Source: Polyangium spumosum (GTDB lineage: Bacteria; Myxococcota_A; Polyangia; Polyangiales; Polyangiaceae). Taken from it: DNA of 64,000 bases. Made by a program: the position numbers and the translations under genes. This document shows positions 47,501 through 64,000 of this stretch, piece by piece. Below the pieces are notes generated by a model, which was not told the origin of the DNA, did not search any database, and saw only the letters and a program-made list of their open reading frames with translations. Location: the NCBI RefSeq assembly GCF_009649845.1, contig NZ_WJIE01000002.1:434001-498000 (forward strand), written 5' to 3'. The first letter of the stretch is position 1. Each line of letters starts with the position of its first letter.

Positions 47501-50500
47501 GGGGCGCCTTCGTGCAGCACTGGAGAGAGGGCTACCCCGCCTGCAAGGAGTCGGTGCTCGCGGGGATGCACGCCGGGCTCGAGACGGGCCAGTACGTCTG
47601 GTCGTTCTACAACGCGGGGAACTCGCTGGAGTACAGCCTACTCCGCGGCGTCCCGCTCTCCGGTCTTCTCGCAGAGGCGCAGAGCTACCAGCCGATATGC
47701 AAGCTCGACACGTGCAGAATCACCTGGAAAGTCGACGCGATTGGACAGCTCGCGCACCAGCTCTCGGTCGAGACCGCGCACCCGGCCAAGCTCAAGGGTG
47801 CGTGGATGGACATCGACGAGGTGCTCGAGGAGGCCCGCCGGATCGACGACCAGGGCACGCTCTTCTGCGCCTGCTGCTACACCGTGCTCCTCGGCGTCTT
47901 TCAGGGCGCGTTCGAGGAAGCGGCGCGCACCGCGCTCTCGCTGAACCTCGAGATCCCGGCCGTGGCGGCCTGGCTCGGCACCCCCGCCCTCCATGGCTAC
48001 GCCGGCATCGCGTTCACCCGGGCGGCGGACGTGGTCTCCCCGGACGAGCGCGCGCTCTTCCTCGCCCGCGCGGAGACCTTCGCTGAAAAGCTCTCGCATT
48101 GGGCGGACCTCTGCCCGGAGAACATGGCGCACCGCAGCGCCCTGCTCGGCGCCGAGCTCGAGCGCGTCCGCGGCAATGGACACGCCGCGGGGGATCGCTA
48201 CGACGAGGCGATCGCCCTCGCGCAGCGCGGCGGCTACCTCCACGACGAGGCGCTCGCCAACGAGCTCGCCGGCCTCTCCTTCCGCGCGCTCGGCAAGACC
48301 ACCATCGCCCGCGCCTACCTGACCGAGGCGCACCGGGCGTACGGCCGATGGGGCGCGACCGAGGCGATGCGGCGCCTCGAGCGCTCCTACCCCGACCTCG
48401 TCCCCGGCGACATCCTCCGCGGCGAGAGCAGCCCGCAGGCCGGCGCCGCGCTCGACATCAACTCGGTGCTCAAGGCCTCCCAGGCCATCTCGGGCGAGAT
48501 CGTCCTCGACCGCCTGCTCGACGGGATCCTGCGCATCCTGGTCGAGAACGCCGGCGCGCGGCGCGGTGTCCTCCTACTCCTGCGCGACGGACGGCTCGTC
48601 GTCGAGGCCGAGCACCGCATCGGCGAGGCGGCCGTCCACATGCTCGGCGCGACGCCCCTCGAGGGCCGCCCGGACCTGCCGGCCGGCGTCGTGACGTACG
48701 TGGCGCGCACGCGCGAGACGGTCGTCCTCGACGACCGCGCGAGCGACGAGCCGTTCGGGCGTGATCCCTGGTTTGCGAGCGCGCGGCCTCGCTCCTTGCT
48801 TGCCGCGCCCATTGTCTGCAAGGGCCGCCTCGCCGGCGTGATCTATCTCGAGAACGGCCTCACCCGCTCGGCGTTCACCCCCGATCGCGTCGAGGTGATC
48901 CGGCTGCTCTCAGCCCAGGCGGCCATCTCCATCGAGAATGCGCGCCTCTATGCGGACCTGCAGCAGGAGAACGCGGTGCGCCGGCGCGCGGAGGCGTCCG
49001 TTCGAGAGAGCCAGGAGCTCCTCCGGTCGATCGTGGACAACACGGCCGCCGTCATCTTCGCCAAGGACCCCGAGGGGCGCTACATGCTCGTCAACCGCGG
49101 GTTCGAAGAGCTCTTCCACTTGCGCCGCGAGGAGGTCATCGGCAAGACCGATTATGAACTCTTCCCACGCGCGCAGGCCGATGAGTATCGCGCCAACGAT
49201 CTGCTCGTCCTGCAGCAGAGTCGGCTCATGGAGATCGAGGAGCGGGCCCCGCAGAGCGGCGGCGCACGCACGTACATATCCCTCAAGTTCCCGCTCCGCG
49301 ATCCCACCGGAACACCTGGCGGCATTTGCGGTATCTCGACCGAGATCACCTCCCGCAAGCACGCCGAGGACGTGCGGCGCCATTCCTACTCGCTCCTCGA
49401 GGCCACGCTCGAATCGACGGCGGACGGCATCCTCGTCGTCGACGGCGAGCTGCGCGTCGTGCGTCAGAATCGCAGGTTCGCGGAGATGTGGCGCATCCCC
49501 GACGAGGTCCTCGCCACCGGGTCGGACGACACGTTCCGTACGTTCGTCTGCGACCAGCTCCTCGAGCCCGAGGCGTTCCTGCAAAGGGTCCGCGCCCTCT
49601 ATGCCTCGCCCGGGGAGAGCAGCTTCGATATCATCCTGTTCGCGGACGGACGCGTCTTCGAGCGTTATTCGCAGCCGCAGCGCCTCGACGGGCGCGTGGT
49701 CGGGCGGGTCTGGAGCTTCCGCGACGTGACCGCGCGCGTGCGCGCCGAAGAGCAGCGCGATCGGCTCCTCATAGACGAGCGCCGCGCGCGCGCGGCGGCG
49801 GAGAAGGCCGTCGGCCTGCGGGACGAGTTCCTCTCCATCGCCTCGCACGAGCTCCGCACCCCGCTCACCACCCTGCAGCTCGCCATTCAATCGCTAGGGC
49901 AAACGCTCGCGCGGGGCATGGACGTCGAGCGCGTGCGATCCGCGGTCGCCCTCTCCGGCCGCCAGATCAAGCGCCTCGACAACCTCGTCGACATGCTCCT
50001 CGACGTCTCGCGGATCCAGGCGGGGAGGCTCGAGCTGAACAGGACGCCCATCGATCTGCGCGAGCTCGTCGGCGAGGTCGTCGCCCATCTCGACAACCAG
50101 ATCGCGCGGTCGGGCAGCACGCTCGCCGTGCGCGCGGAGCAGCCGGTCATCGGAAGGTGGGACCCACACCGCCTGGAGCAGGTCGTGACGAACCTCCTCA
50201 CCAATGCAATCAAGTTCGGGGAACGAGCGCCGATCGAGATCACCGTCACCGCGGAAGATCGGGTCGCACGGCTCGCGGTGACGGACCACGGGATCGGGAT
50301 CCCGGCCGAGGTGCAGGCGCAGCTCTTCGAGCGATTTCGCCGCGGCGTCTCGTCGCAGCATTACGGGGGGCTCGGGCTCGGCCTCTACATCACGCGCACC
50401 ATCGTCGAGGCGCACGGCGGGCGAATTCGCCTGTCGAGCGAGGTCGGCCGGGGCTCGACCTTCTGCGTCGAGCTGCCGCTCTCGACCGAGAGCGCGGGGG

Positions 50501-50514
50501 GCACGCATAACTAA
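44590..50514 (+). CDS. giant sensor: pseudokinase - AAA ATPase - TPR - GAF - PAS - PAS - histidine kinase
   Basis: A 1974-aa signalling protein. Residues 1 to about 270 have a Ser/Thr kinase fold with Lys36 and HRDLRPHN (Asp131), but the DFG is SFG (Ser149) and the Gly-rich loop is missing. Residues about 300-640 are an AAA/STAND module: Walker A SGYSGIGKSSLVHE, Walker B VLFLDDLQWIDPAS. Helical TPR-like repeats follow to about 1290, then GAF (LLDGILRILVENAGARRGVL), PAS (LLRSIVDNTAAVIFAKDPEG), a second PAS, and HisKA/HATPase with H-box SIASHELRTPLTTL (His near 1752) and LTNAIKFGE, DHGIGIP, GGLGLGLYI. AAGG lies six bases before the ATG. No receiver gene is adjacent. Confidence 0.93.
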   Translation: MTVVRGYALCEKIEQTANFRLYRARREGDGVRVLLKVLRAEGSTGAEVARFKHQYERIARIASPRLVAVHGVEELAGSLIVVSEDFPGHDLARVLAARPARRMPVGEALDLAAALAEALAAVHAAGLVHRDLRPHNVLSGARGAVKIQSFGVDAEITRAHERLYAPEVLADVLPYVSPEQTGRMNRGVDYRTDLYALGVILYQTLTGRRPFEALDPMELIHAHLALAPTPPSRVDPTIPEAVSAVVLKLLEKNAEDRYQSAEGLLTDIERCREALRHTGTIEPFVAGQRDRQDLFQIHQKLYGREQDIEALTAAFEHALAGSREVVLVSGYSGIGKSSLVHEILQPLARQKGYFTSGKFDQYNRDTPYSAVIQAFDGLVRQILTESEERVQRWRSAILEALGPNGQVVCDVVPSLLHVIGPQPPVPALGPLEAQNRLSRCFLLFVSVFARRAHPLVLFLDDLQWIDPASLGLLRALLADDSREALFFCGAYRDNEVSPGHPFVRTIEELEHAGLVVRDIVLAPLARPHLLEMLSDSLGRGDCGPLADAVMKKTGGNPFFVKQFVRSLHDHGVLTFAAGSGWRWDLARIDALAYTDNVVDLMVRTIARLPATTQAALKLAAAIGNRFGLDVLATVSECSPEDAYGRLDPAVSEGLVTRGRWGYRFAHDKVQEGAYAMIPEADRPAFHLRIGRLLAAKLDLSESRNLFDVVGHMNSAGDLVSAPAERLRLARMNLEAACRAEDSAAFGAALRYLKRGLLRLPEDAWTSQYPLRLEYGKKIALMLSLCGQHGDALASLSDSLERATSRLDRTEVLRLEMGVHVVENDLPAALAEGLSALRPFGIDLPLFPDDAMVDAQLRVTLALVRETTLEAMPDLPPLADPEIRAVQDVLEELFLPCWFLSPNNLAITVAKILENTLRHGLSKHAIFGCINFGMFLCGRGDIELGYRFGRAAIDLSERHPDKKSEAMLRNMWGAFVQHWREGYPACKESVLAGMHAGLETGQYVWSFYNAGNSLEYSLLRGVPLSGLLAEAQSYQPICKLDTCRITWKVDAIGQLAHQLSVETAHPAKLKGAWMDIDEVLEEARRIDDQGTLFCACCYTVLLGVFQGAFEEAARTALSLNLEIPAVAAWLGTPALHGYAGIAFTRAADVVSPDERALFLARAETFAEKLSHWADLCPENMAHRSALLGAELERVRGNGHAAGDRYDEAIALAQRGGYLHDEALANELAGLSFRALGKTTIARAYLTEAHRAYGRWGATEAMRRLERSYPDLVPGDILRGESSPQAGAALDINSVLKASQAISGEIVLDRLLDGILRILVENAGARRGVLLLLRDGRLVVEAEHRIGEAAVHMLGATPLEGRPDLPAGVVTYVARTRETVVLDDRASDEPFGRDPWFASARPRSLLAAPIVCKGRLAGVIYLENGLTRSAFTPDRVEVIRLLSAQAAISIENARLYADLQQENAVRRRAEASVRESQELLRSIVDNTAAVIFAKDPEGRYMLVNRGFEELFHLRREEVIGKTDYELFPRAQADEYRANDLLVLQQSRLMEIEERAPQSGGARTYISLKFPLRDPTGTPGGICGISTEITSRKHAEDVRRHSYSLLEATLESTADGILVVDGELRVVRQNRRFAEMWRIPDEVLATGSDDTFRTFVCDQLLEPEAFLQRVRALYASPGESSFDIILFADGRVFERYSQPQRLDGRVVGRVWSFRDVTARVRAEEQRDRLLIDERRARAAAEKAVGLRDEFLSIASHELRTPLTTLQLAIQSLGQTLARGMDVERVRSAVALSGRQIKRLDNLVDMLLDVSRIQAGRLELNRTPIDLRELVGEVVAHLDNQIARSGSTLAVRAEQPVIGRWDPHRLEQVVTNLLTNAIKFGERAPIEITVTAEDRVARLAVTDHGIGIPAEVQAQLFERFRRGVSSQHYGGLGLGLYITRTIVEAHGGRIRLSSEVGRGSTFCVELPLSTESAGGTHN

Positions 50515-51536: not shown

Positions 51537-51683
51537 ATGTACACAGCTCGGAGCAGCATGTGCACTCGCCTGAACTACATGTGCACAGTTCTAAACGACG
51601 CACAAAGTATTATGAACGACACATGCACGGTTCTGAACGACACGTGCACAGTCCTGAACGATACATACACGTCTCCGCACGAC
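51537..51683. repeat. seven tandem 21-bp units (147 bp, no indels)
   Basis: Units start at 51537, 51558, 51579, 51600, 51621, 51642 and 51663; a weak eighth lies at 51684-51704. Each has a left half near ACATGCACAG or ATGTGCACAG and a right half near TTCTGAACGAC; 51621 and 51642 are the most alike. The fourth unit is diverged in its left half. The array fills most of the 351-bp gene-free stretch 51378-51728 and is visibly more AT-rich than its surroundings. Read as protein it would give a seven-residue repeat, but there is no ribosome site or clear frame. 21 bp equals two helical turns, which suits a row of protein-binding sites on one DNA face. Confidence 0.8.
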
Positions 51684-53670: not shown

Positions 53671-53728
53671 TGGATGACGCGGTGAAATCCTTGAATTGAT
53701 GGGGCCGTTCGGCGAGGATCCCCCCGCC

Positions 53729-56700
53729 ATGCGCAGCGGGGAGATCGTCGACGGGCGGTTCGAGCTGGAGTCCAAGGCCGGCACCGGCGGCATGGGGACC
53801 ATCTGGCGCGCCCGCGACCTCGCGACGCAGGAGACCGTCGCCCTCAAGGTCCTGCGCGACCCCGATCACGGCGTCGACCGATTCCTGGCCGAGGCGCGTA
53901 TCCTCGCGCGGCTCGAGCACCCGACCATCGTCCGGCACGTCGGGCACGGCGTCACGAGCGCCGGCGAGCCGTACCTCGTCATGGAGTGGCTCGCGGGCGA
54001 GGACCTCGCGACCCGCCTCTCGCGCGGGCCCCTCGAAATCGACGCCAGCCTCGCGCTCGTCCGCCGCGTCGCCGAGGCCCTCGGCGCCGCGCACGCGCGC
54101 GGCGTCGTCCACCGGGACATCAAGCCGAGCAACATCTTCCTCGTCGAGCGCCGCTTCGACCGTATCAAGCTCCTCGATTTCGGCATCGCGCGCCTCTCCT
54201 CCGGGGACGTGCTCACGCGCCCGAGCTCCGTGCTCGGCACCCCCGGCTACATGGCCCCCGAGCAGGCGCGCGGCGACGAGGTCGTCGGCCCACGCGCCGA
54301 CGTGTTCTCCCTCGGCTGCGTCCTCTTCGAGTGTTTGGCGGGACGACCGGCCTTCCAGGGCTCCCACCCGATGGCGCTGCTCGCGAAGCTCCTCCTCGAA
54401 GAGCCCCCGGAGCTCGCGATCGTGCGCCCGGACGTCTCCGCCCCCGTCTCGAGCCTCTGCGCCCGCATGCTCTCCAAGATCCCCGCCCAGAGGCCGGCCG
54501 ACGGGGCGGCGCTCGCGGCCGAGCTCGCGTCCATTCCCGTGACGACCTCGTCGAGCTCGCCGTCCGTGCGCAGCATCCCCGCCTCTCGGCTCAGCGACAG
54601 CGAGCGGCGGCTCCTGTCGATCGTCGCCATCGCGGCCGGCGGGCGCAGCTCGCTCGACGAGGTCCGTCGTGTCGCCGAGCCCCTCGGCGCGTCCGTCGAC
54701 GCGCTCGCGGGGGGCACCGTCCTCATGGTCATGCGTGGCGCCGGCAATGCGACCGATCAGGCGGCGCGCGCGGCGCGCGCGGCGCTCACGATCCACGCCG
54801 CCTCGACGGCGCGCGTCATCGGGCTCGTGACGGGCCGCAGCGACCTCGCCGATCGGCTCCCCGTCGGCGAGCTCGTCGAGCTCGTGGCCTTCCTGCTCGA
54901 TCGCGCCAGGAAAAACGGGCGGTCGGGGGTGATCGTCGACGACGTCACGCGCTCGCTGCTCGACCCTCGGTTCGAGATCGAGGAGCAGGCCGGCCACGCG
55001 TGGCTCGTCCGCGAGCACGCGCGTGGCGACGAGATCCGCACCCTGCTCGGCAACCCGAGCCCCTTCGTCGGCCGGGAGCGCGAGCTGCGCGGGCTCGTCG
55101 AGCTGCTCGAGCAGGAGTTCGACGAGCAGCGGGCGCAGGCCGTCCTGGTCACGGGGCCCGCGGGCATGGGCAAATCGCGCCTGCGGCAGGAGCTCCTCAC
55201 GGAGCTCGGCCGCCGGGTCCCCGACCTCGGCCTCGCGGTCGGCCGCGCCGACGTCATGCGCTCGGGCGCCGCCTTTTCGGTGATCGCCTCCGCGCTGCGT
55301 ATGCTCATGCAAATCGAGGTCGGCGAGCGGCGCGAGCTCCAGCAGCAAAAGGTCTCGGCGGCCGTGGGCGCCTTGCTCTCGGCGGAGGCGGCCGAGGGCA
55401 CGGCGCCCTTCCTCGGCGAGCTCGTGGGCGCGGCCTTCCCCGACGAGCGAAACCCGCGGCTGCGGTCGGCGCGCGAGAATGCGCACCTCATGGCCGAGCG
55501 AATCGAGGCGGCCTGGGTCGAGTTCATGCGCGCGGCGTCCCGGGCCCGGCCCACGCTCCTCGTGCTCGAGGACCTGCACTGGGGGGACGTCTCGTCGGTC
55601 AAGCTCGTGGACACGGCGCTCCGCGAGCTCCGGGACGAACCCTTCGCGGTGGTCGCGTTCGCCCGGCCCGAGATCCACGACATGTTCCCGCGGCTCTGGG
55701 CGGAGCGCGCGCAGGAGGTCCGGCTCGGCCCCTTGCCTCGCCGCGCCGCGACGGCGCTCGTGCGCTCCGCGCTCGGCGACGACGCCTCCGAGGCGTTCGT
55801 CGTGGCCCTCGTCGACAGGTCCGAGGGCAATGCGTTTTACCTGGAAGAGCTCGTCCGGGCCGTCACGGAGGGCCGGAGCGGCGTTTTGCCGGAGACCGTG
55901 CTCGGCATGGTCGAGGCCCGGCTCGCCGCGCTCCCGTCCGACGTCCGCCATTTCCTGCGCGCGGCGAGCGTCTTCGGCGAGGTGTTCTGGCCCAACGGCG
56001 TGCGGCGGCTGCTCGGCGGGCGCCGGCCGGTGAACGTGGACGCCGCGCTCGACGAGGCCGTCGCGCGCGAGATCGTGACGCGCCGGAGCTCGCGGCGCTT
56101 CGTGGGCGAGGAAGAGTATGCCTTCCGGCACGCGCTCCTCCGCGAGGGGGCGTATGCCATGTTGACGGAGCGGGATCGTGTCCTCGGCCATGGGCTCGCG
56201 GGCGGTTGGCTCGAGCGCGTGGGCGAGCCCGACCCCGCGGTCCTGGCGATGCATTTCGAGCGAGGCGGCAAGGGCTCGCGGGCCGCCCACTGGCACGCGC
56301 GCGCGGCCCAGACGGCGATGCGCGGCAACGACCTCCAGGCGGGGCTACGCGCGGTCGAGCGGGGCCTCGCCGCCGGGCCCGCCGACGAGGTCGCGACGGA
56401 CCTCTGGGCGCTCCGGGCCCGCATCGCCTCGGCGTCCGGCGATTACGAGGCCTCGCTCGCCGCGGCCGAGGAGGCCCTGCGGCGCACGACCCCCGGCTCC
56501 ATCGCCCATTACATCGCGCTCGAGGGCGCCATCGGGGGCGCCATGTTGCTCGGCCGGCACGAGACCCTGCACGACCTCAGCCGGCGCGTCCTCGCGACGG
56601 AGCCCGCCCCGAACGCGCTCTCGGCGCTCGCGCGGGCGCTCGCCCCGCTCATCGCGGCGCTCGCGGGGAGCGGCGACGGCGACGCGTTCGTCTTCCTCGA

Positions 56701-57526
56701 GAAGCTGCGCGCGATCATGGCGGCCACGATGGACGTGGAGCCGTCGAGGGCCGGCGCGCTCGCGTACGCGTCGGCGATGGTGGAGAAGAACCTCGGCCGC
56801 AATCCGTGGCTCGCGAGAGAGCACGCGCTCGACGCCGTGCGCTATCTGGAGCAAGGCGGCGAGCGCCACGTCGTCCCCGTCGCCGCGGCGATGCTCGTCG
56901 GCGTCTGCACCGAGCTCGGCGCGTTCGAGGAGGCCGAGTCGTGGCTCGAACGCACGGCGGCGCGCCCTTCCAGCATGGCGGCGCACGTGGCCGCGGCGTA
57001 CTCCGGCCAGCTCCGGCTCGCGCAGGGCCGCTTCGAGGAGGCCATCACGATCTCGGGCGCCGTCGCGGATCGCGCGCACGGCAAGGACGGCAACGTCGTC
57101 AGCGCCATCGGCCGCCTCACGCTCATCGAGGCCCACGTCGAGCGAGGCGCCGTGGCGGAGGCGGAGACCTTGATCGACGCCACGAGCAGCCGCGAATACC
57201 CGTTCGTGGCGGCCGCCTGCGCGTGGTTCCGCGCGAGGCTCCTGCTCGCGCGTGGCCGCGCCGCCCAGGCCGTGACGGTCGCCCGCGACGCCCTCAACCT
57301 CCACTGGCGCATCGGCCCGCGTGGGCTCGAGCGCGTGCTCCTCACGCTCGCGGAGGCCCTCATGGCCGCCGGGGAGACGCAGGCCGCGAGGCGCGCGCTG
57401 CGCGACGCCTGCGACGAGCTCGACGCGCGAGAAGCCGCGATCGGCGACCCGGTCTACCGCCGGCATTTCCTCACGCGTGTCCCCGCGAACGTGCGCATCC
57501 GGAGGCTCGGCCGCGAGTGGTCATGA
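53729..57526 (+). CDS. Ser/Thr kinase - degenerate cyclase-like - AAA ATPase - TPR protein
   Basis: A 1265-aa protein. Kinase domain (residues about 8-275) is complete: AGTGGMGTIWRARD, Lys40, HRDIKPSN (Asp130), LLDFGIARLS, GTPGYMAPEQARG. Residues about 290-430 resemble a nucleotide-cyclase homology domain (RRLLSIVAIAAGG, then AARAALTIHAA and VIGLVTGRSDL) without the metal-binding Asp pair. An AAA/STAND module follows: FVGRERELRGLVELLE, Walker A VTGPAGMGKSRLRQE (near 477), Walker B LLVLEDLHWGD (near 613). The C-terminal 450 residues are TPR-like helices. Start at ATG 53729. The layout is common in myxobacterial kinases; input and target unknown. Confidence 0.93.
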   Translation: MRSGEIVDGRFELESKAGTGGMGTIWRARDLATQETVALKVLRDPDHGVDRFLAEARILARLEHPTIVRHVGHGVTSAGEPYLVMEWLAGEDLATRLSRGPLEIDASLALVRRVAEALGAAHARGVVHRDIKPSNIFLVERRFDRIKLLDFGIARLSSGDVLTRPSSVLGTPGYMAPEQARGDEVVGPRADVFSLGCVLFECLAGRPAFQGSHPMALLAKLLLEEPPELAIVRPDVSAPVSSLCARMLSKIPAQRPADGAALAAELASIPVTTSSSSPSVRSIPASRLSDSERRLLSIVAIAAGGRSSLDEVRRVAEPLGASVDALAGGTVLMVMRGAGNATDQAARAARAALTIHAASTARVIGLVTGRSDLADRLPVGELVELVAFLLDRARKNGRSGVIVDDVTRSLLDPRFEIEEQAGHAWLVREHARGDEIRTLLGNPSPFVGRERELRGLVELLEQEFDEQRAQAVLVTGPAGMGKSRLRQELLTELGRRVPDLGLAVGRADVMRSGAAFSVIASALRMLMQIEVGERRELQQQKVSAAVGALLSAEAAEGTAPFLGELVGAAFPDERNPRLRSARENAHLMAERIEAAWVEFMRAASRARPTLLVLEDLHWGDVSSVKLVDTALRELRDEPFAVVAFARPEIHDMFPRLWAERAQEVRLGPLPRRAATALVRSALGDDASEAFVVALVDRSEGNAFYLEELVRAVTEGRSGVLPETVLGMVEARLAALPSDVRHFLRAASVFGEVFWPNGVRRLLGGRRPVNVDAALDEAVAREIVTRRSSRRFVGEEEYAFRHALLREGAYAMLTERDRVLGHGLAGGWLERVGEPDPAVLAMHFERGGKGSRAAHWHARAAQTAMRGNDLQAGLRAVERGLAAGPADEVATDLWALRARIASASGDYEASLAAAEEALRRTTPGSIAHYIALEGAIGGAMLLGRHETLHDLSRRVLATEPAPNALSALARALAPLIAALAGSGDGDAFVFLEKLRAIMAATMDVEPSRAGALAYASAMVEKNLGRNPWLAREHALDAVRYLEQGGERHVVPVAAAMLVGVCTELGAFEEAESWLERTAARPSSMAAHVAAAYSGQLRLAQGRFEEAITISGAVADRAHGKDGNVVSAIGRLTLIEAHVERGAVAEAETLIDATSSREYPFVAAACAWFRARLLLARGRAAQAVTVARDALNLHWRIGPRGLERVLLTLAEALMAAGETQAARRALRDACDELDAREAAIGDPVYRRHFLTRVPANVRIRRLGREWS

Positions 57527-60500
57527 CGAGGCGAGCCTGCGCCACGTCGCGAGCACCCGCCCGAGCCACGGCAAATCGAAGACCGGCGAGACCACCGTGT
57601 ACGTGGTCAATCGATCCAGGAAGAGCCACGCGAGCGAGGCGCGGAGAGCGCCACGCAGGGCCTCGTCGTCGAGGCCGGGCGCGGCGATGGCGGCGTACGC
57701 GCGCACGAGCGGAAACACCTCGTCGGCGCTCGTCTCCGGGGAGAGCGTGAAGCAGAGGAGCTCCGCGAGGTCGCGTGTCCCGGGGCCGATCGACGCGAGC
57801 TCCCAGTCGTAGAGGACGATCTCCGCGTCCGACTGCGATCGTCGTAATGCGAGGTTCCGCGGATTGGCGTCGTTGTGCAGGAGCGTCGCCGGCATGCAGG
57901 AGAGCGCCTCGGCCCAGCCGACGTCGCGGAGCAGGGGCGCCGCCGCCCGCGCGACGTCCGCGTCGATACGCGTCCGCGCGTGCTCGAAGAGCGCCTCCCA
58001 CAAGGGCACGAGCTCGGCCGCGCCCGTCCCCGCGGGCCGCGCGAAGGGCACGGCGGAGAGCGCCGCGGCGGGCCCGCGCAAGGCCGCGTGCAAGCGCGCG
58101 AGGCCGAGGGCGGCGCGTCGCACGGAGGCGAGTGGCCAGGGTTTTTCGATGGCGTCGAGGGCCTCCACCTGGTCGCCTTCCGACAACCTCTCGAGGACGA
58201 GCGGCGCGCCGATCGCGCCGCCGGACGCGGAGAAGCAGCGGGGTCGTACGCGGGCGAGGGCAGGAGGATCCAGCGCGTAGAGCGCGCGTTCGCGGGTGTC
58301 CGCCGCCGCGACGTCGAGCCAGTGGCCGTGGGTCTCGAGCGCGGCGGCCAGGGCGGGGCTCGAGGCGCGCGCGACGCCCGTGCAAAGGGCGCGGAGCTCG
58401 TCGCCGCGGGCGGGCGCCTTCAGGACGACGTCGAGCACGCGGCCGTCGTCGAGCGAGAGCGTCGCCGGGTACACGCCGACGGGGCGATCGCAGAAGCCAC
58501 GCGCGAGGCGGCTCAAGAGGCCGCTGCCCGCGATGGCCGGAAGGACGCGGGCGGCTTGGACCTCGTGCACGGCGCCGTCGACGACGACCTCGCGAGGCGG
58601 CTCGGGCAAGGCGCGTGAGGCCGCGGTGGCGCGGGCGCCGCGGCGGGGCGGCGGCGGGAGCGCGGAGGCCGCCCTCCACGCGGCGAGGCGATCGTCGAGG
58701 AACGCGGGGTCGACGGGCTCGTCGCCGCGGAAGGCCGGGTCGATGAGGATGGCGGCGCGCCGCGAGCGTTCGTAATGGCGCAAGGTGCCGGCGCGGAAGA
58801 AGGGCCAGAGGCCTCGCAATCGCCCGCGCCGGTGGAGGCCGAGCGCCTCGATACGCGCGAGCCACGACTCCCACGGCACGAGGGGGACGTCATGACCGGC
58901 GAGCGCCAGCCACGCGACCACCTCGCGCAGGCTACGCGACTCGTCGCCCACGTGGACGAGCGCGGGCCCCGCGGAGGCGAGATCGGCGAGGACACGCGCG
59001 AGGTGATCACGAGGACAAACCGAAAAGGGGATATCGAGATCCGGGGCCGCGGCGGCCTCGACGCAGGCGCGCAGCAGGATGGCCACGACGTCGTCCACGC
59101 TCGCCTCGCCGTCCTTTCCGGCGAGCACGAGCGAGGGCCGCACGATGGTGGCGGAGAGCCCGTCCTCTCGCGCCCTGGTGACGAGCAGCTCGGCGGCGGC
59201 CTTCGAGGACGCATAACCGAGCGGGAGGCGCGGGAGCCGCGCGTGCAGGGCCGAGGGGGGCTCGTCGTCGCCGAGGACCGCGCCCGGGAGGGCCGCGCCG
59301 TCGTGGCATACGATCTGCGAGGAGACGTGGACGAGGCGCGCCCCCGCGGCGGCGCAGAGGGCGATCACCTCGGCCGTCCCGCCCACGTTCGTCGGCGCGA
59401 GGGATCCATGAGGCAAGACCCAGTTCACGGCCCCGGCCACGTGCACGACCACGTCGAGCTCCCGGACGAGCGCGTGATACTGGTCCTCCGCGAGCCCGCA
59501 ATGGGGCAACGAGACGTCACCCGCAAGAGCAGAGGGGCCAGCGGCTCCCCTCGCCAGCACGAGCACCCGCTTGTTTCGCCGCGCGAGCTCGTCGACGACG
59601 GCGCGCCCGACGAAACCCGTCCCGCCCGTGACGAGAATGGCCCCGCCGCCCGTTCGGCGCGGCGAAGGGCGCGGCAGGGGACGCGCGAGGTCCTGGATCC
59701 ACGGCGTATCGAGCGGCCCCGAGCCCTCGAGGAGGGCGCGAAGCGTCGGCGCTCGGCCCCAGGCGTCGAGGGAGAGGGGCCGGCCGAGCAGCTCTCCCAG
59801 CGCCGCCGCGGCGTCCGCGGCCTGCAAAGAGTCGAGCGGCAAACGAGCGGGGGGCGCTTCGATATCGATCTCGGCGAGAGAGAGCCCCGTGACCTTCGCG
59901 AGGGCGCGCTGCGCCGCGTGTATCGTGCTCTCCTCCCCCGGCGGAGGATCCGGCAGGGGGGCCGGAGGAGCAGGCCATTCGATCTCGCCCGATCGGAGGA
60001 GCGCCGCCGTCGCCCGCCGCTGGAGCTTGCCCGACGACGTCTTCGGCAGCGTGTGTTTCGGGACGAGCGCGATATCGACGGAGATCCCGTGCTCGAAGGA
60101 CACCACGTGATGGACCGCGGCGATCACCGCGGCGCGGCCCGCCTCGTCGAGTGAATCGCCCACCTCGCAAACCACGACGGGCCGCGCCTCCCCGAGCTCG
60201 CCCTGGTCCTCGAGCAAAACGGCGCAGACGCAGCCTCGCCGGATCGCCGGGTGCGCGCCCTCCGCCGTGCGCTCGACGTCGTGCGCGTGGTGGTTCTCGC
60301 CGCGGAGGATGAGCACGTCCTTTTGCCGGCCCACGAGGAAGAGCAGATCCCCGCGGCGATAACCGAGGTCGCCGGTGCGGAGGAAGGTTTCAGCTCCGAC
60401 CGATCCGGCGAGCGTCGCGCCAAACACCTCGCGCGTCGCCTCGTCGTGCCCCCAGTATCCATCGGCGACGCTGCCGCTGCGCAGCCATATTTCGCCGATA

Positions 60501-61672
60501 TGCCCGTCCGGGAGCGGCACGCGTATCTCCGGATCCACCACCCGCAGCGTGACGAGCGGCGGGATTTCTCCGACGCAGACCACGTCGATCCCGCGCTCGC
60601 CGCTCGCCTCCACGGCCTCGCCCCGGGCGAGCGCCGCGGCCGAGAGGCGCTCGACGGTGAAGGGCGCAAACGTGCGGCACGAGGCGAGCACGGTATGCTC
60701 GGCGAGCCCGTAACACGGAAACCACGCGGAGGCGGAGAACCGCGACGGCGCGAACGCGGCGGCGAACGCGGAGAGCGTGCTCGCGCGGATGGGCTCGGCG
60801 CCACAATACGCCTGCGCCCAGCAGGAGAGATCGAGCTTCGCGCGCGCGGCCGGGTCGATCTTCCGCACGCAGAGGTCGTACGCGAAGTTCGGCCCGCCGC
60901 TGCGCGTCGCCCCGAATCGCTCGATGGCCGAGAGCCACCGCGCGGGCCGCTCGAGGAAGGCCCACGGCGGCATCAACCACGCGGGCCAGCCTCCGTCGAG
61001 CGGGAGCAGGATCCCCTCGATGAGCCCCATGTCGTGGAATTGCGGGAGCCAGCTCACGGACGCGCGTGGAGTCGCGGGCGCGACGCCGTGAATGACGTGC
61101 AGGTTATGGGAGAGGTTCCGCCGCAGGATACGTACGCCCTTGGGCTCGGCCGTCGAGCCCGAGGTGTATTGCAAAAAGGCGAGGCCCTCCTCGCGGGGAT
61201 CGTCGATCGTGAGGCTCGCGCGCGGGACCTCGCGGACGTCGATCCAGGGCATACCCGCGAGCGCGGGCACGGCGCCTTCGAGGATCGGGCGATAAGGCTC
61301 CACGGCGGCCGTCGACAGCACCGCCGCGGGGGCGGCGTCGCGCACGAGGTGGGCGAGCCGCGAGAGGCTCCGGGCCGGCTTGTGGGGATCGGGCGGGATC
61401 GCCGGCACGGCCACCCTGCCTGCGCGGAGGCAGGCGAGGAAGGCGATCACGAAATCGAGCCCCGGCGGGAAAAGCAAGAGGATACGCGTGCCCTCCGGGA
61501 ACGACGCGACGAGGACGGCGGCCACGTCGTTCACGCGTGTATCGAGCCCGCCCCAGGTGAGCTCGTCCGTGACGTCCTCGCCATTGTCGAGGAAACCGAG
61601 CGCGAGCTCGTCCCCGCGCGTTTCGGCGCGCCGACGTAGTTTTGCGGGGAGGAACGTGAAGGCGGGGCTCAC
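57521..61672 (-). CDS. fatty-acyl-AMP ligase - ACP - thioester reductase - APH-like kinase fusion
   Basis: A 1383-aa assembly-line enzyme. Residues 1 to about 575 are a fatty-acyl-AMP ligase (FLQYTSGSTAEPKGV near 169; SWLPQFHDMGLIEGIL; PCYGLAEHTVLASC; LRTGDLGYRRGDLLFLVGRQ). Residues about 585-660 are a carrier domain with DSLQAADAA; Ser near 613 would carry phosphopantetheine. Residues about 675-1010 are a thioester reductase (LVTGGTGFVGRAVVDEL, YASSKAAAELL). Residues about 1060-1383 match the aminoglycoside phosphotransferase/choline kinase fold: VVLKAP, LLHNDANPRNLALRR (near 1263) and VLYDWELASIGPGTRDLAEL. GTG start overlaps the PlsC stop by 4 bp. It should activate a fatty acid and reduce it off the carrier; what is phosphorylated is unknown. 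Confidence 0.92.
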   Translation of the reverse strand: MSPAFTFLPAKLRRRAETRGDELALGFLDNGEDVTDELTWGGLDTRVNDVAAVLVASFPEGTRILLLFPPGLDFVIAFLACLRAGRVAVPAIPPDPHKPARSLSRLAHLVRDAAPAAVLSTAAVEPYRPILEGAVPALAGMPWIDVREVPRASLTIDDPREEGLAFLQYTSGSTAEPKGVRILRRNLSHNLHVIHGVAPATPRASVSWLPQFHDMGLIEGILLPLDGGWPAWLMPPWAFLERPARWLSAIERFGATRSGGPNFAYDLCVRKIDPAARAKLDLSCWAQAYCGAEPIRASTLSAFAAAFAPSRFSASAWFPCYGLAEHTVLASCRTFAPFTVERLSAAALARGEAVEASGERGIDVVCVGEIPPLVTLRVVDPEIRVPLPDGHIGEIWLRSGSVADGYWGHDEATREVFGATLAGSVGAETFLRTGDLGYRRGDLLFLVGRQKDVLILRGENHHAHDVERTAEGAHPAIRRGCVCAVLLEDQGELGEARPVVVCEVGDSLDEAGRAAVIAAVHHVVSFEHGISVDIALVPKHTLPKTSSGKLQRRATAALLRSGEIEWPAPPAPLPDPPPGEESTIHAAQRALAKVTGLSLAEIDIEAPPARLPLDSLQAADAAAALGELLGRPLSLDAWGRAPTLRALLEGSGPLDTPWIQDLARPLPRPSPRRTGGGAILVTGGTGFVGRAVVDELARRNKRVLVLARGAAGPSALAGDVSLPHCGLAEDQYHALVRELDVVVHVAGAVNWVLPHGSLAPTNVGGTAEVIALCAAAGARLVHVSSQIVCHDGAALPGAVLGDDEPPSALHARLPRLPLGYASSKAAAELLVTRAREDGLSATIVRPSLVLAGKDGEASVDDVVAILLRACVEAAAAPDLDIPFSVCPRDHLARVLADLASAGPALVHVGDESRSLREVVAWLALAGHDVPLVPWESWLARIEALGLHRRGRLRGLWPFFRAGTLRHYERSRRAAILIDPAFRGDEPVDPAFLDDRLAAWRAASALPPPPRRGARATAASRALPEPPREVVVDGAVHEVQAARVLPAIAGSGLLSRLARGFCDRPVGVYPATLSLDDGRVLDVVLKAPARGDELRALCTGVARASSPALAAALETHGHWLDVAAADTRERALYALDPPALARVRPRCFSASGGAIGAPLVLERLSEGDQVEALDAIEKPWPLASVRRAALGLARLHAALRGPAAALSAVPFARPAGTGAAELVPLWEALFEHARTRIDADVARAAAPLLRDVGWAEALSCMPATLLHNDANPRNLALRRSQSDAEIVLYDWELASIGPGTRDLAELLCFTLSPETSADEVFPLVRAYAAIAAPGLDDEALRGALRASLAWLFLDRLTTYTVVSPVFDLPWLGRVLATWRRLASS

Positions 61673-62400
61673 GCCGCGGCTCGCTCGGCCTCGAAGGCCT
61701 GATAGACGCCGCGCACGTGGTCGGCGTGCTCGCGCGCGGTCTCGGGCCGCCAATCGCTCGTGTCGACGTCGGGCAGGACGTGGACGATCACCTTCGTCCG
61801 CGGCATGACCCAGCTCTTGCCCGGGTTGTCCGATTTCGGAATTTCGAGGTAGAGCGGGACCATCGGCGCCCCGAGCGCGGCCGCCAGGTGAAACGCGCCC
61901 TTGTTGAACGGCCCCACGGAGCCGGTCGTCACGCGTGTCCCTTCGGGGCTCAGATACACCGCGTCGCCGGTTCTTCGGAGCACCTCACACGCGGCGGCGA
62001 AGAGCTCGCGGCGTTTCTCGGTGTACGCCTGGGGCACCGTGAAAAACGTGCCCACGCACATGGCCACGATCGCGCCCGGCGGGAAGACCCACGCGCCGCG
62101 CTTCATGAAGAACCACGCGCGCGGCAGGCAGAGCGAGAGCAGCACGAAGAGATCGATCGAGGAGGTGTGATTCGAGACGTACACGACGCGGCGCTCCGGC
62201 AGCGGGAACACGGGCGCGCGCACCTCGACCGAGATGCCGGCGAGGCCGAGGACCACGGACGCGGCCCAGGCCCCGAGCTTCTCGGCCGCGGCGCGCCGGC
62301 CGAAGAGGAGCCGCACGACGACGAAGAGCGGCGAGAGCGCCGTGACGAAAAGAATGGTCAGCACGAGGGCGACGACGGCCCGAATGCGCTGGAGGCTCAC
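61669..62400 (-). CDS. 1-acyl-glycerol-3-phosphate acyltransferase-like (PlsC) membrane enzyme
   Basis: A 243-aa PlsC-family acyltransferase. An N-terminal membrane helix (AVVALVLTILFVTALSPLFV) and a second hydrophobic stretch precede the HX4D active site VVYVSNHTSSIDLFVLL. VYLSPEGTRVTTGSVGPFNK is the acceptor-phosphate motif (EGTR). The GTG at 62400 overlaps the methyltransferase stop, and its own stop overlaps the next GTG, so the three genes are coupled. In this operon it may acylate an unusual lipid rather than lysophosphatidate. Confidence 0.9.
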   Translation of the reverse strand: MSLQRIRAVVALVLTILFVTALSPLFVVVRLLFGRRAAAEKLGAWAASVVLGLAGISVEVRAPVFPLPERRVVYVSNHTSSIDLFVLLSLCLPRAWFFMKRGAWVFPPGAIVAMCVGTFFTVPQAYTEKRRELFAAACEVLRRTGDAVYLSPEGTRVTTGSVGPFNKGAFHLAAALGAPMVPLYLEIPKSDNPGKSWVMPRTKVIVHVLPDVDTSDWRPETAREHADHVRGVYQAFEAERAAA

Positions 62401-63380
62401 GGCGAGTTCCCCGACGCGGGGTTTTCCAGGACGATCGTCTGCATGGCGAGGTTGAGCTGCTTCTCGAAGAGCAAGATCGGCGAGAGCGCGAGTTGTCCCG
62501 CGAAGTACGGGCCGATCGCCTTGCCCACGTCGAGCCCCTTTCCGCGGAGCACGTGGAACGCCGCGCCCGCGAAGAGGTAGAAATAGGCCGGGAACGCGCC
62601 CCAGGGCAGGTGGTCGACGATGGAGAGGCCGCTCTTCTGGCACATCGCGCGGAGCGTGCTCCAGTCGAAGAGCACGGTGTGTTGTGGCGCCTGGAGCCCG
62701 GGCCAGCGGTCCTTGAAGAGCCGGAAGGTCGTCGAATCGAGGCGCGGCACCTCGACGACGATACGCCCCCCGGGCGCGAGCAAGCCCCGCGCGCGTTCGA
62801 GCGTCTGCAGAGGCTCGTAATCGTGCTCCAGGAAATGCCACATCGTGATGAGGTCGAAGCGCGTCTCTCCGAAATCGACGTCGGCGAGCACGCCTACGCG
62901 GAAATCGACGCCTTCGAGCAGCGGATGGCCGCGGAGATCCTTGAAGTCGACGCCGGTGACGGCGGCGCCGTATCCTTTGCGGAGCATCTGCAGGAAGCTG
63001 CCCACGGCGCAGCCGATATCGAGCACGCGCATGCCGCGGCGCAAGGGGACGTACCTGCCGCAGAGCTCGACCTTGCGGCGGTCGTGCCCGTTCATGCCCC
63101 ACTCGTAGAGCGGCGTGAACACGCCCCAATCTTTCTTTTTGCGGTGGGCGATGTACTCGGAATCGTAATAGGCGCCGATGTCGGCCTGGACGATACGCGG
63201 CCTCTGATGGGCGAGGCCACACGCGCGGCAACGGACGAAGCGGAAGCGGCCGGGTTTGCCGGTGAGGTCGTCCTCGGCCTCGAGGAGGAAATCGGCGTCA
63301 CGCCCGCCGCAACCAGGGCAGGCGTTGTCTTCCATGCGGGGCTTGGTTTGCTGCGGGATCGAGGCCTCGGTCGTCGTCAT
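62397..63380 (-). CDS. zinc-ribbon class I SAM methyltransferase
   Basis: A 327-aa methyltransferase. The N-terminus has a zinc ribbon, CPGCGGRDADF and RCRACGLAHQRPR (two CxxC pairs), then YYDSEYIAHRKKKDWG. Motif I is MRVLDIGCAVGSFLQML, with TMWHFLEHDYEPLQTLERA and LLAPGGRIVVEVPRLDS further on. The C-terminal part is hydrophobic (FPAYFYLFAGAAFHVLRG; IGPYFAGQLALSPILLFEKQ), suggesting membrane contact and a lipid or prenyl substrate. ATG 63380 has AAGGA seven bases upstream and lies 11 bp after the UbiA stop. Similar zinc-ribbon methyltransferases modify sugars or lipids. Confidence 0.88.
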   Translation of the reverse strand: MTTTEASIPQQTKPRMEDNACPGCGGRDADFLLEAEDDLTGKPGRFRFVRCRACGLAHQRPRIVQADIGAYYDSEYIAHRKKKDWGVFTPLYEWGMNGHDRRKVELCGRYVPLRRGMRVLDIGCAVGSFLQMLRKGYGAAVTGVDFKDLRGHPLLEGVDFRVGVLADVDFGETRFDLITMWHFLEHDYEPLQTLERARGLLAPGGRIVVEVPRLDSTTFRLFKDRWPGLQAPQHTVLFDWSTLRAMCQKSGLSIVDHLPWGAFPAYFYLFAGAAFHVLRGKGLDVGKAIGPYFAGQLALSPILLFEKQLNLAMQTIVLENPASGNSP

Positions 63381-63391
63381 CGTCGGATCCT

Positions 63392-64000
63392 TCAAAAGAA
63401 AACGCGAGGGAACCGGACCCAGATCACAGGCCCGGCGAAGAGGCAGGCGAGGTCGACGAGGGCCAGCGCCGACGCGAGGGGCGCGCGGCGCGCGTCGTCG
63501 TCGTGCACGAGCTCGTACGCAGTGACGGCGCCATAAAGCGAAAGGACGGCGCCGACCTTCCAGAAGAGGGGCATCTCGGGGCGAGAGAGGGCGAGCGCAA
63601 GCGCGGGCACCTTGAGCAGGAGCACGTGCGTGAAGAGCAAGCGCAGGCGAGGCCACGCCGCGCGCGCGGCAAAGGCGCCGAACGAGGCGACGACGACGCC
63701 GACGAACGGCCAGAGCGCGCCGCCGGTGAAGGCGATCAGGGCCGCCGTGAGCGTGAGCCCGAGCAGCGCGACGAAAAAGGGCGCCCGCGTGGAGGCGAGG
63801 CGGCAGAGCACACGCGTCGGGTGGTGCTCTCGATCGTGCGGGACGTCCTCGACGTCGTCCCACAGGCGAAAGGCCACGATGCCGAGGAAGGCGATCGCCG
63901 TCCGCACGAGCACGCGGCCCACGCCGCCTGCGAGCGCGACAAAAAGCGCGAGCGGCACGAGCAGGTGCGACGACACGAGGATCCGCTCGCGGAGCCACGC
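63392..64000 (-). CDS. UbiA-type prenyltransferase, N-terminus outside window
   Basis: At least 203 residues of a membrane prenyltransferase. The frame is open to the window edge: AWLRERILVSSHLLVPLALF continues upstream of the GTG at 63976, so the gene probably begins beyond base 64000. The metal-binding motif FRLWDDVEDVPHDREHHPT is seen, then TRVL; six or so membrane helices follow. The second Asp-rich motif is weak (VTAYELVHDDDAR). UbiA enzymes attach prenyl chains to aromatic or polar acceptors. It is the first of four coupled leftward genes in the window. Confidence 0.82.
   Translation of the reverse strand, partial: AWLRERILVSSHLLVPLALFVALAGGVGRVLVRTAIAFLGIVAFRLWDDVEDVPHDREHHPTRVLCRLASTRAPFFVALLGLTLTAALIAFTGGALWPFVGVVVASFGAFAARAAWPRLRLLFTHVLLLKVPALALALSRPEMPLFWKVGAVLSLYGAVTAYELVHDDDARRAPLASALALVDLACLFAGPVIWVRFPRVFF

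Follow-up and report, generated by a model that had tools for sequence, protein, structure and literature searches.

The genes at the end of the window, the 64,000-nucleotide stretch of DNA from the soil myxobacterium Polyangium spumosum analyzed here, and just past its edge resemble the later half of archaeal membrane-lipid synthesis coupled to an enzyme with fatty-acid reductase and kinase parts, and they probably make an undescribed phospholipid. We found no description of this cluster in the open-access literature, as judged by titles and abstract openings among the matches listed. The first-pass annotation had reported four leftward genes in this region, encoding in order of transcription a UbiA-like enzyme, a zinc-ribbon methyltransferase, PlsC, and a 1383-aa FAAL-ACP-reductase-kinase fusion, spaced by +11, -4, and -4 bp. 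This minus-strand run was borne out, and reading past base 64000 revealed three further genes on the same strand (dikinase, CarS, and desaturase), so the window edge cuts the predicted operon. Its features are as follows.

57521..61672, minus strand: FAAL-ACP-thioester reductase-APH-type kinase fusion, 1383 aa, last gene of the predicted operon
59948..61672, minus strand: FAAL (fatty-acyl-AMP ligase) domain, fusion aa 1-575 (PF00501, E 1.8e-50)
59729..59908, minus strand: acyl-carrier domain, fusion aa 589-648, with the serine motif PLDSLQ (PF00550, weak)
58553..59638, minus strand: thioester reductase domain, fusion aa 679-1040, with GGTGFVG and YASSK (PF07993, E 2.3e-34)
57521..58552, minus strand: APH-type kinase domain, fusion aa 1041-1383, with the ATP lysine, HNDANPRN, and DWE (homology to a PF01636 APH domain)
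61669..62400, minus strand: PlsC-type acyltransferase, 243 aa, with NHTSSID and SPEGTR (PF01553, E 1e-17)
62397..63380, minus strand: zinc-ribbon class I methyltransferase, 327 aa, with CPGCG and CRACG (PF13489, Methyltransf_23, E 5.9e-22)
63392..64000, cut by the window edge (whole gene, G000:C2:497392-498042), minus strand: UbiA-like membrane enzyme, 216 aa in total
C2:498017 to about 500569, minus strand: RPH-like dikinase (PF01326, PF00391, and fold)
C2:500566-501147, minus strand: CarS (CDP-archaeol synthase)-like protein (PF01864)
C2:501152-502129, minus strand: fatty acid desaturase

The domains of the fusion support the earlier suggestion that it would convert a free fatty acid into an aldehyde or alcohol. 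Among single-enzyme models, its ligase part scored highest with the FAAL model PRK05850 (358.6 bits), followed by PRK07768, which is named a CoA ligase (265.4 bits), and the next general CoA ligase (108.9 bits), with no curated NCBIfam cut-off reached; the genome holds two more FAAL-like domains. The carrier domain is weak (PF00550, E 0.0018, 18.9 bits, below the curated cut-off of 20.8), and the reductase domain matched TIGR01746 of NCBIfam (E 6.4e-48) without reaching its cut-off. No Pfam match at E 0.01 was obtained for the kinase part, which is homologous to a PF01636 APH domain (33% identity, E 4.6e-36). Residues K45, H226, N227, D228, N233, and D249 were invariant across 14 aligned rows, and the ATP lysine, the HND..PRN motif, and the Asp of DWE are all present. 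Comparison of the seven operon genes with those of genome G149, in which gene ends were set by hand, gave dN/dS ratios of 0.12 to 0.48, as expected of real genes.

ElbD of Myxococcus xanthus, named by the first-pass annotation as the nearest precedent, turned out to be a weak one. The elb operon provides the same kinds of functions for an alkyl lipid, namely acyl-AMP ligase, ACP, reductase, and acyltransferase (PMC9131029), and this likeness is what would favor reading the Polyangium genes as a variant of the elb ether-lipid pathway. However, in that review ElbD is a single FAR-ACS-ACP-AT chain (reductase-ligase-ACP-acyltransferase) with a HAD phosphatase (phosphohydrolase) and a member of the NAD-epimerase family as neighbors, whereas the Polyangium fusion is FAAL-ACP-TR-APH, PlsC is a separate gene, and the operon adds UbiA, CarS, and dikinase genes and has neither a HAD phosphatase nor an epimerase gene. 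An ElbD-type pathway thus fails on domain order, with neighbors that also differ, and we regard a variant of it as very improbable. The same review places elbD and elbE in each of the three suborders of myxobacteria (PMC9131029), and one survey reports VEPE/AEPE clusters to be absent from all Polyangiia analyzed (PMC10435759). Carboxylic acid reductases (A-T-R) share the order of adenylation, carrier, and reductase domains; the fusion differs from them in its FAAL-like adenylation domain and extra APH kinase, and it scored 73.9 bits with NF041592 against a cut-off of 1300.

The archaeal UbiA-CarS half-pathway is a better precedent than ElbD, and it is visible only beyond base 64000. As in archaeal ether-phospholipid synthesis, a UbiA-family enzyme and CarS are encoded together, and related clusters add an enzyme resembling PssA or archaetidylserine synthase and a phosphatidylserine (PS) decarboxylase. 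The CarS-like protein exceeded the PF01864 cut-off (51.1 versus 22 bits) and missed that of the NCBIfam equivalog (70.7 versus 148 bits); its nearest solved relative is the archaeal CDP-archaeol synthase 5guf (E 3.1e-8). In contrast to the archaeal pathway, the operon has a fatty-acid front end, PlsC, an RPH-like dikinase, an APH kinase, and a short UbiA, and GGGP synthase over its cut-off is missing. The search for GGGP synthase (PF01884) returned no match in the Polyangium genome itself, and matches over the cut-off in 0 of 30 relatives and 0 of 18 cluster-bearing genomes, some of which are MAGs; each of the two sets gave four short matches below the cut-off, and the same search matched 7 of 14 controls, 5 of them over the cut-off. 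Archaeal-type lipid genes in bacteria are also described for the FCB group (PMC7852524). According to that report, only CarS and G1P dehydrogenase were undetected in the Ca. Cloacimonetes MAGs; the Polyangium set, in contrast, has CarS, and here it is GGGP synthase that was not found (PMC7852524).

The dikinase consists of an ATP-grasp domain, a helical middle, and a C-terminal phosphohistidine domain in which the catalytic His is kept. Rifampin phosphotransferase (RPH) shares this architecture, the catalytic His, and the full-length fold (5hv1, E 5.7e-36, 21% identity in the aligned fold), but the operon enzyme sits among lipid genes and reached only 235 bits with the RPH model, whose cut-off is 999. 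Since it scored about equally for RedH, a prodigiosin-type ligase (239 bits), and for RPH, and highest for a model named PEP synthase (384 bits), with no NCBIfam cut-off reached, its reaction cannot be read from sequence.

The UbiA label comes from a predicted fold and from homology to longer UbiA-like proteins, which do not reach the PF01040 cut-off either; the 216-aa protein had no family match. A profile of the longer relatives matched the archaeal DGGGP synthase 6m31 at E 4.9e-5, the sole PDB match under 1e-3. The Polyangium-type enzyme (type A) is 216 aa long compared to about 300; its first Asp-rich motif is intact, the second conserved motif of the longer relatives is lost, and its dN/dS (0.48) is the highest of the seven genes. 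Its predicted fold gave weak matches: among the best 50 rows the highest TM score was 0.60, to 6m31, none there reached E <= 1e-3, and the top Foldseek row was the membrane PRTase 8j8j at only E 0.12, which would be a phosphoribosyltransferase reading. A second comparison, with VIA, gave Z scores of up to 13.6 to many all-helical isoprenoid synthases, and the best 50 rows do not discriminate. The UbiA family uses prenyl diphosphates. Its reaction usually requires an allylic diphosphate, and a saturated fatty alcohol would not supply one. In one alternative, the chain attached by UbiA is an ordinary isoprenoid and the operon yields a prenylated, fatty-alkyl hybrid lipid. HMG-CoA reductase genes in some related clusters fit such a product, but the seven Polyangium genes include no polyprenyl synthase or HMG-CoA reductase by Pfam, none of the latter was seen in type-A loci, and type A has lost the second UbiA motif. 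We consider this hybrid improbable.

Our preferred reading, to which we would give a little less than an even chance, is that the operon makes a specialized phospholipid from fatty acid in an archaeal-like series of steps. The gene set, its order, its recurrence in several phyla, and the kept catalytic motifs are observed; all substrates, the reaction order, and the product we infer. The fusion would activate a free fatty acid to acyl-AMP, load it onto its own ACP, and reduce it to the alcohol, which its C-terminal kinase would convert to an alkyl phosphate. The dikinase may add one more phosphate, either onto the chain, as activation for UbiA, or onto the acceptor, and the UbiA-like enzyme, a distant relative of archaeal DGGGP synthase, would then link the chain, probably through an ether bond, to an acceptor that carries a phosphate. 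PlsC would add an acyl chain, the methyltransferase and desaturase may tailor the product, and CarS would turn the phosphatidate-like product into a CDP-lipid. A PssA-type enzyme would add the headgroup. The seven Polyangium genes include no CDP-OH phosphatidyltransferase or PS decarboxylase. Against the preferred reading stand this absence, the allylic diphosphate that UbiA enzymes usually require, the short length, lost motif, high dN/dS, and weak fold match of the type-A UbiA, and the NCBIfam cut-offs missed by CarS and the dikinase. In two relatives (L120 and L122) a CDP-OH phosphatidyltransferase gene lies directly before CarS, with PssA as the best model (98.6 and 86.5 bits, cut-off 107), and a search for its orthologue elsewhere in the Polyangium genome gave three paralogues of similar score, one above the PssA cut-off and two slightly below.

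All 6 of the Polyangium genomes examined carry the seven genes as one group, which supports joint inheritance and the earlier idea of an uncharacterized lipid operon; the first-pass interpretation as a whole is supported in part. The core of CarS, dikinase, UbiA, methyltransferase, PlsC, and fusion was also found in other Myxococcota and in one Gemmatimonadota MAG, and a Planctomycetota MAG has part of it. The order of the core is kept in L040 (genome G216), in L122 (G206, with the reductase in two frames), in L120 (G250, contig ending in PlsC), and in the Gemmatimonadaceae MAG locus L039 (FAAL in a separate frame); the Planctomycetaceae MAG locus L041 has the desaturase, CarS, dikinase, UbiA, and methyltransferase genes and no fusion. 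Related clusters with a PS decarboxylase were seen in Clostridia, Streptococcus, and others. Scatter of homologues across related genomes, which the first-pass annotation had named as evidence against an operon, was looked for with CarS, dikinase, methyltransferase, and the kinase domain. Matches for these four fell in Polyangium and in a small number of genomes, the majority of which have related clusters: CarS in 9 and dikinase (E <= 1e-60) in 11 of 183 genomes of the order, and methyltransferase in 7 and kinase domain in 12 of 98 genomes of the family. All 11 strong-dikinase genomes fall within the 12 kinase-bearing genomes.

Of 51 loci whose CarS has the ELPNS motif, near-copies included (4 Polyangium, 2 S. 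cristatus), 42 have a dikinase or UbiA gene in the vicinity, compared to 1 of 21 archaeal and bacterial loci with the GD-type protein; for 2 of all 74 loci no CarS motif was called. The CarS scan detects only genes that contain RLFGD[NH]KT or one other short pattern. Neighbors were identified over at most 10 kb by blastp comparison with a small number of reference proteins, and because many of the contigs are short, some partners may have been missed; two contigs carry two labels each (L040 = L121, L056 = L125). The patchy distribution of the set among genomes of the order and family would also suit a secreted small molecule, such as an alkyl phosphate or a wax-like or signaling lipid, in place of a membrane lipid; FAAL-ACP-reductase modules are known from natural-product pathways, and the dikinase also resembles RedH. 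The CarS gene and the PssA-like neighbor in two relatives point instead to CDP-lipid headgroup chemistry, and the seven genes include no transporter by Pfam. A secreted product is in our judgment decidedly improbable.

In all 20 distinct proteins found, the kinase domain lay C-terminal to a thioester-reducing enzyme (9 thioester reductases and 11 HMG-CoA reductases); many are orthologues, so the independent cases are fewer, and the census covered TR, HMGR, and FAAL partners only. Six of the eight HMGR-APH genomes searched (G066, G065, G129, G145, G147, and G216) have another HMG-CoA reductase, and therefore the fused one looks dedicated; in G064 and G498 it was the only one seen. The idea that the kinase substitutes for mevalonate kinase in these fusions was lowered by an ordinary mevalonate kinase over the cut-off in 7 of the 8 genomes; none was found in the 2.6-Mb MAG G498, where the idea may still hold. 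A dikinase clade and the kinase were mutually exclusive, present in 22 and 13 of 46 loci with an overlap of 0 when relatedness is ignored, and in 22 and 6 of 39 loci after kinase near-copies only were collapsed by hand (P 0.004). In this count the kinase of G066 sits further off than the neighborhood read, and L034 was counted without kinase. The accompanying tree is quick, with long branches, and labels L041 by hand as a kinase locus, in which no kinase was found; the exclusion count uses the computed set.

These fusions bear on whether the product contains glycerol. In a glycerol-free phospholipid, the reductase-kinase fusion would make a phosphate-bearing backbone (for example, a hydroxy fatty acid converted to a long-chain diol phosphate), PlsC would esterify the other hydroxyl, CarS would form the CDP-derivative, and UbiA would add the second chain. 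The failure to find GGGP synthase over its cut-off in relatives and cluster-bearing genomes, the fusion of the kinase, in every case found, to a reductase that yields an alcohol from a thioester, and the apparently dedicated HMG-CoA reductase all argue for this scheme, but ordinary glycerol-3-phosphate, present in these bacteria, could be the backbone. We regard it as unlikely, though with a real chance of being right. Its extension to a whole family of glycerol-free bacterial phospholipids is an improbable conjecture: the fusion would supply a long-chain alkanol backbone in the Polyangium type and a mevalonate backbone in the HMG-CoA reductase type, a second dikinase would replace the kinase in Bacillota, a DGGGP-synthase-like UbiA would attach a chain, and the headgroup would be completed, as in archaea, by enzymes resembling CarS, PssA, and PSD.

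If such a glycerol-free family exists, it would represent a further route to a phospholipid backbone, spread across Myxococcota, Gemmatimonadota, Planctomycetota, Bacillota, and others. Our data place archaeal-type lipid enzymes (UbiA, CarS, and, within related clusters, relatives of archaetidylserine synthase and decarboxylase) in cultured bacteria, for example Polyangium fumosum and Streptococcus cristatus, in which GGGP synthase, the start of the archaeal route, was not found. The reductase-kinase fusions and the lipid-linked RPH-like dikinases suggest a lipid role for enzymes that carry names such as PEP synthase. If a membrane lipid is made, these genes would bear directly on the lipid divide, a question within reach of lipidomics on cultured strains.

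At the end of the window, the first-pass annotation had described four leftward genes with gaps or overlaps of +11, -4 and -4 bp, and the coordinates bear this out (spacing of the fusion, PlsC, methyltransferase and UbiA-like genes, -4, -4 and +11 bp):

57521-61672, leftward: 1383-aa fusion; fatty-acyl-AMP ligase (FAAL), carrier protein (ACP; weak match) and thioester reductase by Pfam and NCBIfam
61669-62400, leftward: PlsC, acyltransferase by Pfam/NCBIfam
62397-63380, leftward: zinc-ribbon methyltransferase, by Pfam/NCBIfam
from 63392, past the window edge, leftward: UbiA-like gene, complete at 216 aa once read beyond the window

The domain labels given there thus stood for the ligase, thioester reductase, acyltransferase and methyltransferase and weakly for ACP, and the APH-type kinase at the C terminus of the fusion was recognized through homology to a relative matching PF01636. 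Reading past base 64000, as the annotation had proposed, revealed genes for a dikinase (named PEP synthase by NCBIfam models), then a protein like CDP-archaeol synthase (CarS; 51.1 bits with PF01864 against a cut-off of 22), then a desaturase. Because these have the same orientation and are closely spaced or slightly overlapping, we predict an operon of seven genes. The gene 14 bp upstream (L007:12145-12795) encodes a hypothetical protein whose homologue adjoins the operon in four of five other Polyangium loci. At the other side, a large Ser/Thr-kinase-AAA-TPR protein (53696-57526) runs in the opposite direction, its end overlapping that of the fusion by 6 bp. The window also holds a 1974-aa kinase-like hybrid (44590-50514; read from translation only) and a 21-bp tandem repeat between two kinase genes (51613-51671; 2.8 copies, 81% matches).

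A search of other Polyangiales, likewise proposed at first pass, found the seven genes together in all six Polyangium genomes examined (loci L035 to L038 are from P. fumosum and three Polyangium species). UbiA was 55-62% identical to its counterpart in the window, the remaining genes or domains about 81-91% (71% in the ACP stretch of locus L032), and dN/dS of the seven genes was 0.12-0.48 versus genome G149. Within the order, CarS was detected in 9 of 183 genomes (six Polyangium, two of genus g43, one weak); 11 of the 183 gave a dikinase match at E <= 1e-60. Within the family, searches of 98 genomes detected the methyltransferase in 7 (six Polyangium, one at 35% identity) and the kinase domain in 12, which include all 11 dikinase genomes of the order search.

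Outside the family, the operon core occurs in the myxococcotal loci L040 (genome G216), L122 (G206) and L120 (G250), partially in L123 (G296) at a contig edge, and in a Gemmatimonadaceae MAG (L039). A Planctomycetaceae MAG locus (L041) has part of the core, and the fusion was not found there. CarS is present in 14 of 377 Myxococcota genomes: four are Polyangium and four carry the Polyangium operon type (one in part). This type was not seen in the remaining six; G242 and G267 have CarS with other neighbor sets, and in G240, G299, G457 and G459 neither dikinase nor UbiA was seen along the stretch read, which in two cases lay on a short contig. In L120 and L122, a PssA-like CDP-OH phosphatidyltransferase lies directly before CarS, at the place of the Polyangium desaturase.

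A CarS-alignment scan of contigs from 84,980 species (one genome per species) returned 74 loci. CarS has an ELPNS motif in 51 of them, and the stretch available held a dikinase in 42, UbiA in 32, phosphatidylserine decarboxylase (PSD) in 25 and a CDP-OH phosphatidyltransferase in 22; the 21 loci with GD-type CarS had one dikinase and no UbiA. A frequent arrangement in Clostridia, Pseudobacteroides and Streptococcus cristatus/moroccensis runs CarS, dikinase 1, CDP-OH phosphatidyltransferase, PSD, UbiA, dikinase 2 and GNAT, followed in some clusters by an AMP ligase. Among the loci with this compact Gram-positive cluster are L064 and others from Clostridia as well as L062, L065 and L067 (S. moroccensis, S. 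cristatus). For the CDP-OH enzyme of S. cristatus, archaetidylserine synthase was the top-scoring model (92 bits against a cut-off of 240); the UbiA of this species matched NF010118, a model whose name says no more than prenyltransferase, with 594 bits against a cut-off of 443. The g43 cluster comprises UbiA, an HMG-CoA reductase-APH fusion, PSD, CDP-OH phosphatidyltransferase, CarS, a GNAT-like gene and a dikinase. A Cyanobacteria MAG locus (L052), in which a thioester reductase-domain protein adjoins a dikinase and CarS, may stand midway between the two cluster types.

Alignment of 61 dikinases showed conservation of the catalytic histidine and a VRSS-type motif; the ATP-grasp lysine was kept in 60 rows, the exception lacking its N terminus. 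At L087:9441-12479, UbiA and a dikinase missing its N terminus form one 1012-aa frame, which may be a true gene fusion or an error in assembly of the MAG. A quick tree with several long branches split the dikinases into clades of 22 and 39 rows, with the Polyangium type in the second; all 15 loci with two dikinases had one per clade. The kinase domain was seen only with second-clade dikinases (clade 1 in 0 of 13 kinase loci versus 22 of 46 overall, kinship ignored). For the dikinase of the Polyangium operon, rifampin phosphotransferase (RPH; 235 bits) and prodigiosin ligase RedH (239 bits) scored about equally by sequence alone. The dikinase model (pLDDT 84.1, pTM 0.70) matched RPH 5hv1 over its full length (E 5.7e-36) and PEP synthase over 347 columns only. 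RPH uses ATP to phosphorylate its drug, releasing AMP and Pi (PMC4844700).

The AlphaFold model of the operon's UbiA (pLDDT 90.5, pTM 0.87) had no Foldseek match in the PDB at E <= 1e-3. Its best 50 matches include UbiA-superfamily and isoprenoid-synthase folds, the highest TM among them being 0.60 (DGGGP synthase, 6m31), and 6m31 was the sole match under 1e-3 for a sequence profile of longer UbiA relatives. The motif R-x2-D-[DE]-x2-D-x3-D was kept in 37 of 37 aligned sequences; the Polyangium type has lost a second motif that the longer proteins have.

In all 20 distinct proteins found, the kinase domain lay C-terminal to a reductase, namely a thioester reductase in 9 and HMG-CoA reductase in 11. 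Copies of one and the same protein had been removed manually; close orthologues remain among the 20, including the six from Polyangium and some further ones. G216 has one fusion of each kind. The HMG-CoA reductase fusions include L030:5627-8230, L163, L164, L166, L175, L033 and others. The fused HMG-CoA reductase looks dedicated, because six of eight genomes with it have a second HMG-CoA reductase and seven of eight a mevalonate kinase over the cut-off. The only solved relative of the kinase at E < 0.01 was ACAD11 (E 5.5e-4 over 61 residues), which we take to carry a hydroxyacyl-CoA kinase domain.

How does this operon compare with known systems? It would function like the latter half of the archaeal lipid pathway, yet it is not that pathway, because no GGGP synthase exceeded the cut-off in the genome itself, its relatives or the cluster-bearing genomes searched. 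The Myxococcus elb ether-lipid genes, with multidomain ElbD, had been offered as the nearest precedent; their domain order and neighbors differ from those of the Polyangium operon. PMC9131029 and PMC10435759 differ on whether Polyangium has elb genes elsewhere. Carboxylic acid reductases resemble the fusion in domain order only. The gene set was not described in the available portions of the open-access literature searched, including the elb and archaeal-lipid papers (PMC9131029, PMC9426513, PMC11868695, PMC7852524, PMC10435759) and PMC12419801.

We infer every substrate in the pathway proposed here. Most likely, the fusion would convert a fatty acid to an alkyl phosphate; UbiA, PlsC and CarS would build and then activate a phosphatidate-like lipid, to which a PssA-type enzyme would attach the headgroup. 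UbiA enzymes use allylic diphosphates, and this need is the main chemical difficulty of the mechanism; we speculate that the operon desaturase might be the source of an allylic alcohol. The Polyangium genome has one PssA over the cut-off and two closely below, all outside the operon. The PssA-like gene beside CarS in L120 and L122 is the strongest link of this operon type to headgroup chemistry.
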